In this document: positions 1-5,949 of the stretch, piece by piece
How the letters are laid out: the number at the start of each line of letters is the position of its first letter
Numbering within the stretch: position 1 is the stretch's first letter
From: an uncultured Verrucomicrobiales bacterium
GTDB taxonomy: Bacteria; Verrucomicrobiota; Verrucomicrobiia; Limisphaerales; Palsa-1400
Direction: 5' to 3'
Length of the DNA stretch: 64,000 bases
Assembly: GCA_903927905.1 (NCBI GenBank)
Contig: CAIYOY010000215.1
Span: forward strand, 1-64,000
Translations under genes and position numbers: made by a program
The notes under the pieces: generated by a model
What the model saw: the letters and a program-made list of their open reading frames with translations, nothing else
Database searches by the model: none
What the model was told of the DNA's origin: nothing

Positions 1-67
1 ACACTCTGTATTTTTTTAATAAGTTTCATCACGTTTTCGTGAAACTTATTAAAAAAATACGGAGTGT
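1..67 (+). repeat. Long hairpin: 28-bp inverted repeat with 11-nt loop
   Basis: 1-28 acactctgtatttttttaataagtttca pairs with 40-67 tgaaacttattaaaaaaatacggagtgt. The only non-Watson-Crick position is t7/g61, a G.U wobble in + strand RNA. Confidence 0.9.
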
Positions 68-144
68 GCTGGATGGCACGGGACCGTCGAAATAACGGAC
101 GGCCTCCGGAAATCTTTAACTAACTTCTTCGTACGGCAAAGCGG

Positions 145-213
145 TGGCAGAGGCGGATAAGCAGCAGGCATGACAGACGCTGCGGCTGGCATGACTGCTG
201 CCCGCCTCTGCCA
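145..213 (+). repeat. Hairpin: 12-bp stem, 4-nt bulge, 7-bp stem
   Basis: tggcagaggcgg (145-156) pairs with ccgcctctgcca (202-213); gcagcag (161-167) pairs with ctgctgc (195-201). Confidence 0.8.
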
Positions 214-309
214 GCGCGTGCCACTAATATTCCGGGTGAGACATCGCTAAACCGAAACGCTGATATTGCATCACAAAGCGTGGTGAACCCGTGGGATTCG
301 TGCCTCTGA

Positions 310-373
310 GTGCGTGGCGACTGTCCTGCTCTAATGCTCTTATATTTTAAAAAGCAGGACAGATGACACGCAC
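310..373 (+). repeat. Hairpin: 7-bp plus 10-bp stems separated by a 4x4 internal loop
   Basis: gtgcgtg (310-316) pairs with cacgcac (367-373); ctgtcctgct (321-330) pairs with agcaggacag (353-362). Confidence 0.8.
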
Positions 374-469
374 GAACTAATGTTCTGCGTGGGACGTTGG
401 TGAACCGGAACCGTCCTCTGGCATCGAGGCGTTTATGGAATTGTTTCGGGACCATGATAATCACGGCGA

Positions 470-529
470 GCGGACGGCTGCTGCGTAGGCACCTTGCGCC
501 AGCACGGTGCCGGAGCAGGAGCCGGACGC
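470..529 (+). ncRNA. Structured hairpin module, copy 1 (candidate RNA element)
   Basis: gcg/cgc, GA/GA internal loop, cggct/agccg, g.g, ctgc/gcag, gta/gga, ggcacc/ggtgcc, tgc/gca with GCCA loop. A second copy lies at 601-660 with compensatory changes. Confidence 0.6.
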
Positions 530-600
530 GGACACGGCATGAGTTGCTGAATCGTGTGCGAAACTCATGGCCCGGCACTGGACCGTTAAAATTACCGTGA

Positions 601-660
601 GCGGATGGCTGCCGCGCAGGCACCTTGCGCAAGCACGGTGCCGGAGCGGGAGCCAGACGC
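601..660 (+). ncRNA. Structured hairpin module, copy 2 (candidate RNA element)
   Basis: Same architecture as 470-529: gcg/cgc, GA/GA, tggct/agcca, g.g, ccgc/gcgg, gca/gga, ggcacc/ggtgcc, tgc/gca with a GNRA (GCAA) tetraloop. Confidence 0.6.
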
Positions 661-785
661 GGAGCATGTCTGATCCTGACACTCATCTGACTTTTCTCAA
701 AACCGACGGCTAGTGACAAACAAATCCGCTCGTTTCCGGTGGTGTCTGTATATTTTACTCTCGGGCCGGGATAAATTAAAAGTGG

Positions 786-2447
786 ATGCCCGTAAATACT
801 TTACATCCTGAATACGAAAACCACCAAGATTGGTGGCGCACGTTGCGTGATGTGATGGAGGGCGACCGCACAATGAAGCGGGCGGGTATTCGGTATCTGC
901 CACGGTTGGAGGGAATGAATGATTTGGAATACCGCTGGTATGTCGAAAGGGGATTCTTTTACAACGCCACGGCCCGCACGGTGCTGGGTTACCTCGGGAT
1001 GATTTTTCGGCGCGAGCCGGTTCTGAAATTACCGGACCCTGGCACGGCGTTGGGCGATGCACTCAAAGCATTCGTGAATGATGCCGATCTGTTGGGCAAG
1101 GAAATATCTCATTACGCCCGCGAATTGACCACGGAAGTGGCGGTGATCGGTCGCGCCGGGACGCTGGTGGATTGGTGCGACGCGCCGGAGAATCGAGCTT
1201 ACCTGACGTTTTACGGGGCGGAAGATATTTTGAATTGGCGGGAGCAACGCATCAATGGACGGATGCAAACGACGCTAGTGGTTCTGCGGGAACGCACGGC
1301 CAGCGGATTGAATGACGAGTTTGCGGTGGCGGAAGTGGAACGGCTGCGGGTGCTGCGGTTGGTGAAGGGGAAAGTGAGAGTGGAGAAAGAAAGCTCGTCC
1401 TCACCCCTGCCCTCTCCTCCAGGAGAGGGAGAATCGCTCGCCGCGTCTGTGACTGGAGCAGAGGGCTGGCATTATGTGGTGGAGGTTTGGGGGCGGAAAA
1501 AGGACGGGCGTGGTTCTGATGCGCCGGTGGGAAGTGAAGAAGGCGGCGGGGCGAGTTCTGGTTCGGCGGTCCCCTCCTCCACTGCGGCAAGTTTTCCGGC
1601 GGTGTCGGCGGTGAATCGGGTCGGGACGGATGCTCATGCTTTTGAGTTATTGGAGACGCGGGTTCCTCTGCGCCGGGGCAAGGCGCTGCCGAATATTCCT
1701 TTTGTGTTTCACGGGCCAAGTGCTTCCAAGGCGGCGGTGGAGCGGTCGCCGATTTCTGATTTGGTGGCGGCGAACTTGGACCATTACCGCATGACCACGG
1801 ATTACAAACATGGGATGCACTTCACGGCGCTGCCGACTGCTTGGGTCTCGGGCTTCGACAAGGATGTGGTTTTGCGGATTGGTTCCAGCACGGCGTGGGT
1901 GACGGAGACGCCAGGCGCGACGGCGGGATTTCTGGAATTTAAGGGCGATGGTTTGCAGACGTTTGAACGGGCGCTGGATCGCGTCGAGCGATTGCTGGCG
2001 GTTTTGGGTGCGCGTTTGTTGGAATCACAAAAGCGGGCGGCGGAAAGCGCTGAGTCGGTGCAGCTCCGGCAAGCGGCGGACAGCAGCGTGATCGCGGGAA
2101 TTGCGGTGGCGGTGTCGAAGTCGCTGAACAAGGCGTTGCAGTGGGTCGTTTGGTGGAACTCCTCGGAGGAACATCCTGACCAAGTTTCGAGCGGGGACAT
2201 GCTGATTTCTCTCAATCGTGATTTCGACATCGTGCGACTGACGGGGAAAGAAATTCAAGCGCTGGTGGTGGCTTGGCAATCGTCGGCCATCAGTTTGGAC
2301 ACGGTGCTGCATCAAATGGAACGGGGCAGCGTGTTGCCTCCGGGCCGCAGTGCTTCGGAAGAAATGGAATTGATCAAAAAGAATCCTCCGCCACTCGCGC
2401 CACAACAACATACGCCTTGGGGACAAAGTGGTGGCGGAGAAAATTAA
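786..2447 (+). CDS. Phage portal protein (DUF4055-like)
   Basis: ORF of 553 aa. Its N-terminus (YLPRLEGMNDLEYRWYVERGFFYNATARTVLGYLGMIFRREP) is typical of DUF4055 portals. It is followed by scaffold-like and capsid genes. Confidence 0.8.
   Translation: MPVNTLHPEYENHQDWWRTLRDVMEGDRTMKRAGIRYLPRLEGMNDLEYRWYVERGFFYNATARTVLGYLGMIFRREPVLKLPDPGTALGDALKAFVNDADLLGKEISHYARELTTEVAVIGRAGTLVDWCDAPENRAYLTFYGAEDILNWREQRINGRMQTTLVVLRERTASGLNDEFAVAEVERLRVLRLVKGKVRVEKESSSSPLPSPPGEGESLAASVTGAEGWHYVVEVWGRKKDGRGSDAPVGSEEGGGASSGSAVPSSTAASFPAVSAVNRVGTDAHAFELLETRVPLRRGKALPNIPFVFHGPSASKAAVERSPISDLVAANLDHYRMTTDYKHGMHFTALPTAWVSGFDKDVVLRIGSSTAWVTETPGATAGFLEFKGDGLQTFERALDRVERLLAVLGARLLESQKRAAESAESVQLRQAADSSVIAGIAVAVSKSLNKALQWVVWWNSSEEHPDQVSSGDMLISLNRDFDIVRLTGKEIQALVVAWQSSAISLDTVLHQMERGSVLPPGRSASEEMELIKKNPPPLAPQQHTPWGQSGGGEN
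1410..1429. repeat. REP-like palindrome, copy 1, inside the portal ORF
   Basis: ccctctcct-cc-aggagaggg preceded by the shared flank tcctcacccctg. Confidence 0.7.
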
Positions 2448-5031: not shown

Positions 5032-5122
5032 CTATGGAAGGACTTTATCCGATTATTCGCCGGAAACGCAAACCACTGGTTGACGTTACGCCACAAGTGA
5101 AAACGCCGGTCCCTCACCCTGG

Positions 5123-5147
5123 CCCTCTCCCATCCGATGGGAGAGGG
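5123..5147. repeat. REP-like palindrome, copy 4
   Basis: ccctctcccat-ccg-atgggagaggg with upstream ccctcaccctgg. Confidence 0.75.
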
Positions 5148-5949
5148 AATGTTCCTCCGATCCCTGAAAATGAAAAGACACCGATACAAGATATTCCCGC
5201 CGCTCCCGTCAAAGGGTCGGGTAAGCCTGCGCGGTTGGTGGGCGGAGCGTGAGCAACGGCGGCGGCGCGAGCGTCTCGACTCCTCAACCAACACGGCTCC
5301 GCCAGTGTTGTGGCTGAAAGGGTCTGACATTGTTGGCAGTCCCGGTGATTCGATTGCGTTCTGGGCGGACGCAAGCAGTTATTCAAACAATGCGGCGCAA
5401 GACACGGTCTCAATGCAACCGACTTTGCAATCGGTCACGTTTGCGGGGAAGACCTTCAAAGTGGCGCGGTTCGACACAGTGGACGACGGAATGATTACCC
5501 AGGCCATTATCAACGATCCTACGCCCTATTCCATTTTTGTGATTTGGCGTCCGGCTGATCTTTGGACCACTTCGGCCATCATCTCCAGCGGTGATGAGGA
5601 TTGGTTGATGGGAACGGACGGCGGCAGAATGCTTTGCTACTTCACTAATTGGAGCGGCGCGACTGTACCGGATGCGATAAACACGGATGACTTTTATCTT
5701 TTTGAAGTTCGCATCACGCCCGGCGAAGATCCAACCGGAATTTATATCAATGGGGTCCAGACCTATGTTTTTCCCGGTGGTGGTTCGGATGCACCGAATC
5801 AAGTCATGCTGGGGTCGTCGGGCAGCAATCCTTATCCGGGCGGATGTGATGCGGCGGAAATCATGATTTACGACCGGCAGTTGCCGGATGACGAAGCGGC
5901 GGATGTTCGGGCGTATTTTCAGGCGAAATACAATTATCTGAAATTATGA
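5137..5949 (+). CDS. LamG/concanavalin-like phage protein (start uncertain)
   Basis: PPVLWLKGSDIVGSPGDSIAFWADASSYSNNA...YFQAKYNYLKL is LamG-like. The ORF 5' end overlaps the palindrome and another ORF (5034-5252). Confidence 0.6.
   Translation: MGEGMFLRSLKMKRHRYKIFPPLPSKGRVSLRGWWAEREQRRRRERLDSSTNTAPPVLWLKGSDIVGSPGDSIAFWADASSYSNNAAQDTVSMQPTLQSVTFAGKTFKVARFDTVDDGMITQAIINDPTPYSIFVIWRPADLWTTSAIISSGDEDWLMGTDGGRMLCYFTNWSGATVPDAINTDDFYLFEVRITPGEDPTGIYINGVQTYVFPGGGSDAPNQVMLGSSGSNPYPGGCDAAEIMIYDRQLPDDEAADVRAYFQAKYNYLKL

Follow-up and report, generated by a model that had tools for sequence, protein, structure and literature searches.

The duplicated hairpins upstream of the DUF4055 portal gene are real, and they are parts of a larger unclassified structured region that extends from a palindrome, P0, to the portal ATG at position 786 of the window (the whole 64,000-nt stretch analysed, which starts at base 1 of a 71-kb contig in a 4.7-Mb draft genome). 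As judged from sequence comparison, the structure is conserved and covaries across related loci, lies on the portal strand close to the portal and has a divergent ORF for a small basic protein linked to it. We consider that the region probably, if far from certainly, encodes an independent + strand noncoding RNA of DUF4055-portal phages or prophages of Verrucomicrobiota, made of repeated hairpin modules and coupled to the small-protein gene.

The duplication appears in a repeat search as an 84-nt direct repeat (449-532 and 580-663; 86% identity, spacing 131). The original prediction that its two imperfect copies fold into the same hairpin on the + strand holds, none of 200 shuffles folding as well as either copy, and the - strand folds less well (z -2.4 for copy 1 and -3.5 for copy 2). 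The layout, hereafter hairpin C, also came out as described, with 3 bp, GA/GA, 5 bp, G.G, 4 bp, a 3x3 loop, 6 bp, a 1x1 loop, 3 bp and a tetraloop, and the coordinates and pairs assigned to it were correct. Six sites differ between the 61-nt hairpins at 470-530 and 601-661, comprising two fully compensated pairs and two unpaired sites (486 and 500). The compensated pairs are exactly, to the base, those that had been named: C475-G524 becomes T606-A655, and T482-A517 becomes C613-G648. When six changes were placed at random in simulation, at least two compensated pairs arose with P ~0.0015. The two motifs that had been singled out were less constant, the GNRA loop (GCAA) being present in copy 2 and missing from copy 1 and L019 (both GCCA), contig C233 (3-nt loop) and L033 (GACA), and the tandem GA/GA mismatch being present in both window copies and the C233 copy and missing from L019. 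Beyond the window there is one strong copy of hairpin C (C233) and two distant ones (the C-type hairpin of L019 and that of L033), and the support for hairpin C itself is thus a small sample. A reading frame kept through the repeats is unlikely, and a coding explanation was rejected, because the spacing of 131 is not divisible by 3 and one loop base is missing in the C233 copy.

The claim of a selected RNA structure on the + strand is supported by covariation among homologues, but its extent had been understated: the element starts at base 1, and hairpins C are its 3′ modules (Table 1). Positions 60-785 fold at z -9.5, measured against only 20 shuffles. Pfam and PHROG matches bear out the placement of the repeats upstream of a portal gene. 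On its 3′ side the noncoding region ends where this gene starts, and after the gene come those for scaffold and major head. No Rfam family had been recognised by eye, and none reached the gathering score in a search of the window; at a loose threshold, positions 1-800 gave only below-gathering matches, mostly to microRNA models and none to GOLLD or ROOL. Simple hairpins often give weak microRNA-model matches. A sigma-70 promoter and terminator scan of positions 1-900 gave no + strand signal, with neither a promoter nor a terminator for the RNA, which counts against an independent transcript. Further into the window, phage-type genes seem to end near 8 kb and long minus-strand ORFs follow (8443-64000), so that the window may include a prophage end or remnant. 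A CCCTCTCCTCC-type repeat is read in frame inside the portal gene (1381-1440; SSPLPSPPGEGE), and a stretch similar to it occurs in a small ORF (5034-5200; VPHPGPLPSDGRG); the two are possibly in-frame insertions of a dispersed repeat.

Table 1. Features of the structured region and the adjoining portal gene in the window; E-values of covariance models are rough (short calibration)
Feature	Position	Strand	Evidence
P0, 28-bp near-perfect palindrome, 11-nt loop with TCATCAC	1-67		Inverted repeat; same element in other loci
Probable start of divergent small basic ORF (MKLIKKIQS...), cut by contig end	1-29	-	Translation
Domain I hairpin, RUGACAG / CUGGCRY A.G-mismatch motif	133-223	+	Model R1 72.1 bits, E 5.6e-14 (window in model input); covariation
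Hairpin B	310-373	+	Inverted repeat
Hairpin C copy 1	466-532	+	Fold z -5.3; model R2 97.8 bits (copy in model input)
Hairpin C copy 2	597-663	+	Fold z -5.7; model R2 98.1 bits (copy in model input)
Portal gene, DUF4055	786-2447	+	Pfam PF13264 E 2.2e-36; PHROG 145 portal E 6.3e-102

Evidence for selection comes from related portal loci. Searches that started from the portal yielded 21 loci from viruses and 52 from Verrucomicrobiota, and domain I was found through [AG]TGACAG, a motif common to the window and G005, a genome of the same family. Related portal loci in Verrucomicrobiota MAGs and viral contigs follow a common plan of P0, domain I, sometimes a junction domain, and the portal. The same plan is found upstream of the portal in G005, where the entire region has only a modest folding advantage over shuffles (z -1.55) and where the sequence upstream of the homologous portal is 79% identical to hairpin B with its 3′ tail (351-414; DNA match E 2.5e-6). 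A covariance model of homologues had been put forward as the check on the prediction, and domain I upstream of DUF4055 portals covaries far beyond shuffled and slid controls. Over 12 sequences, 93.5% of its pairs are standard, 13 pairs are changed on both sides, and the cells changed on both sides number 41 against 11.6 in shuffles, all of them being lost on sliding the partners; significance is taken from these controls, in which shared ancestry remains, and because the few sequences are related the counts for covariation and association are inflated. The paired cells hold 20 G-U against 4 A-C, which points to the + strand, and one U-G pair is retained in most sequences. Full-length R1 matches lie upstream of portals at fifteen distinct loci, all on the portal strand, and are accompanied by partial matches; the input loci match by construction, and L011, L037 and L057 lie outside the input, L057 appearing to repeat the L028 sequence at the match. 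The junction domain, common to six loci, has one helix that encloses further arms, and 13 of its 37 pairs are changed on both sides. Covariation beyond controls, by which a structured noncoding RNA may be recognised, was found in both domains.

Module content differs between loci, a point against the independent RNA. A hairpin in L033 (462-529) joins the RUGACAG motif of domain I to the apex of the window's C hairpins, a resemblance which suggests that hairpins C and domain I may be one hairpin family. In L049 and L033 the domain I flanks surround a shortened stem, and from such sequences the module seems to grow and shrink. Position-binned fold z-scores (120 nt) revealed no structured position in common among the portal loci, which were later found to differ in their modules and in how far these lie from the portal. 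A pattern scan of 2.9 million IMG/VR contigs, followed by R1, left four contigs, all with a DUF4055 portal, the pattern requiring exact letters that divergent members would escape. The pattern CTGCGTGGGACGTYGRT gave six matches in viral contigs, all in apparently unrelated coding sequence. Neither the RNA region, sought at the DNA level, nor the small protein turned up in the phage collection searched. Several DUF4055 portal loci can occur in one genome, with six in MJ-time_bin-3030 (L042, L054, L060, L071, L081 and L084) and three in MJ-time_bin-1719 (L062, L065 and L067), which suggests multiple prophages or a multi-copy capsid element in such Verrucomicrobiota genomes.

A candidate partner of the region lies at its 5′ end. 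In other loci P0 precedes domain I by about 65-120 nt, and of the P0-type palindromes among portal loci 15 of 16 are in RNA-bearing loci. TCATCA is invariant in the P0 loop, which in reverse complement gives the start codon of a minus-strand ORF (about 70-90 aa) that has a conserved PWWQP stretch, and the small proteins examined are basic (pI 10.8-12) and Trp-rich. This ORF is present in 16 of 21 RNA-bearing portal loci against 0 of 36 other portal loci with enough upstream sequence, an association whose Fisher p of 3.5e-10 overstates independence, the loci being related. The minus-strand MKLIKKIQS of the window compares with MKKIQKIK in L012 and MKQINKIK in L019 at the same place, and bases 1-29, too short for a homology test, are likely the cut-off start of the same ORF. 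Searches of the small protein against Pfam and PHROG gave no match, and its structure model (pLDDT 80.8), mostly one long helix, gave no significant fold match in the PDB. A different small ORF, 79-81 aa long (MARTYYITAPPAVAGSHIRYT...; L020:1781-1850 and L011:351-420, minus strand), begins within the palindrome in L011 and L020, its start codon again lying in the P0 loop. In L036, L040, L058 and L077, P0-like arms enclose a domain I-like hairpin rather than precede it.

The pairing within P0 raises the question of which nucleic acid folds. Its stems vary from AT-rich to GC-rich, and over 12 loci they hold 250 Watson-Crick against 2 G-U pairs. Such a near-absence of G-U is expected if both DNA strands must fold, and a DNA cruciform would likewise account for it; together with the position of P0 beside the head genes, this is what a DNA-level phage element would predict, such as a site for packaging or replication where P0 and the hairpins work as cruciforms or as single-stranded DNA structures. 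However, such an element is hard to reconcile with the conserved U-G pair and + strand bias of domain I, with the multi-helix junction or with its absence from most related portal loci, and the terminase lies kilobases from these portals in the records where PF03237 found one. We consider a DNA element very unlikely. Under the independent RNA that we favour, P0 may be present in both transcripts; if so, both would have to fold it, and this would account for the near-lack of G-U pairs in the freely changing stems.

Within this family some hairpins are mobile or reused, but the portal-linked arrangement keeps both its position and its partner. On contig C233 hairpin C occurs a third time, between convergent ORFs; G399 holds eight scattered related hairpins and G124 three, with no portal seen in their neighbourhood, and one of those in G124 adjoins a Y1_Tnp gene; domain I modules in G046 have no portal within about 1.5 kb, and spacer motifs recur within apical loops. 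Hairpins away from portals in a few genomes, and a hairpin C copy on another contig, count against an independent RNA, and the C233 copy keeps alive the alternative that these are dispersed palindromic hairpins, REP- or MITE-like, that spread between intergenic sites as folded single-stranded DNA, a mode of movement that would preserve the structure, with the duplication representing two insertions. Like REPs with their RAYT (Y1_Tnp) partners, the hairpins are imperfect palindromes with mismatches, and some are dispersed. Unlike them, they occur at very low copy rather than as many near-identical sequences: hairpin C has only three copies in its own genome and none in five family members, and domain I is mostly single copy (one in G000, and often one in other closely searched genomes, with up to five when weak matches are counted). 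At the thresholds used, 8 of 97 relatives carried domain I, as did 6 of 388 genomes from across the phylum. These hairpins flank none of the six Y1_Tnp genes in the own genome, although one copy lies beside a Y1_Tnp gene in the distant G124; divergent phages keep the position beside P0 and the small ORF, and the junction domain is more than a hairpin. For these reasons we find a mobile hairpin an unlikely explanation of the region. The G399 and G124 hairpins (L109, L110, L113, L121, L125 and L128) resemble the domain I core, and two of the G399 copies lie beside paralogous genes.

The position of the element on the portal strand, usually directly upstream of the portal, is also that of a cis-acting 5′ leader of the late structural operon, whose nascent hairpins would control termination or translation of portal-scaffold-capsid in the manner of HK022 put. 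The putL and putR RNAs are ~70 nt each, with two stem-loops each, and lie downstream of early promoters (PMC9378689); the region resembles them in having two related structured stem-loop elements of ~70 nt that belong to a phage and share the coding strand of the operon downstream. Whereas a put element has two short stem-loops and lies close to an early promoter, each module here is a single long hairpin, the hairpins lie beside late genes (portal, scaffold and major head), and in most relatives transcription of the portal seems to begin downstream of the element. That last point comes from a motif, GTGYTANNGT, noted before portal starts across L019-L086: both strands of 952 kb together hold 38 copies, of which 32 lie 15-26 nt before a portal start, mostly at exactly -16, and we take it to be an extended -10 element that would give a leaderless portal mRNA. 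A leader is further opposed by L011, in which three minus-strand ORFs intervene between RNA and portal, by an RNA-portal distance that ranges from 258 to 2464 nt, and by the link with the divergent small ORF, which it leaves unexplained. The promoter-like element before most portals and the opposing ORFs of L011 favour an independent RNA over a leader, which we regard as rather unlikely; the window portal has no -16 element, and for the window locus the leader reading therefore stays.

How might an independent RNA be connected to the small protein? It would be a transcript of its own, separate from the portal leader, acting in trans and coupled to the small-protein gene either through P0 or through the repeated mismatch motif. 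In the first case, the P0 loop of the RNA (UCAUCAC) would pair as an antisense with the P0 loop of the small-gene mRNA (GUGAUGA), which holds the start codon, a step that we offer as a guess and hold to be doubtful. In the second, the basic, Trp-rich protein would bind the repeated A.G-mismatch hairpins. Small protein genes controlled by antisense RNAs are found in type I toxin-antitoxin systems and in plasmid copy-number control. By analogy with these, the putative RNA and a small basic or hydrophobic ORF lie on opposite strands, overlap at the start codon and would present complementary loops; unlike in these, the RNA would be far larger and structured, and the ORF is without a Pfam or PHROG match. 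Among known phage RNAs, the closest are GOLLD and ROOL, long (about 660 to over 800 nt), highly structured noncoding RNAs of phages and prophages, GOLLD having one conserved part and one variable part (PMC12286853). The region is likewise long, highly structured and phage- or prophage-borne, and differs in its link to the portal gene and small basic ORF and in being made of repeated hairpin modules, and no tRNA island was apparent around it; the Rfam covariance models of GOLLD and ROOL gave no match at the gathering score in the window.

We tentatively envisage a two-part unit, a large modular phage RNA of a new family with a small basic protein. The RNA and the mRNA opposite it would each fold the palindrome, and their loops would pair across the start codon. 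Large structured RNAs known from phages are few and without a settled function. Here, a linked small protein, a palindrome over its start codon and a repeated mismatch motif resembling a binding site make partner and mechanism directly testable, and the RNA region may serve as a marker for viruses of Verrucomicrobiota.
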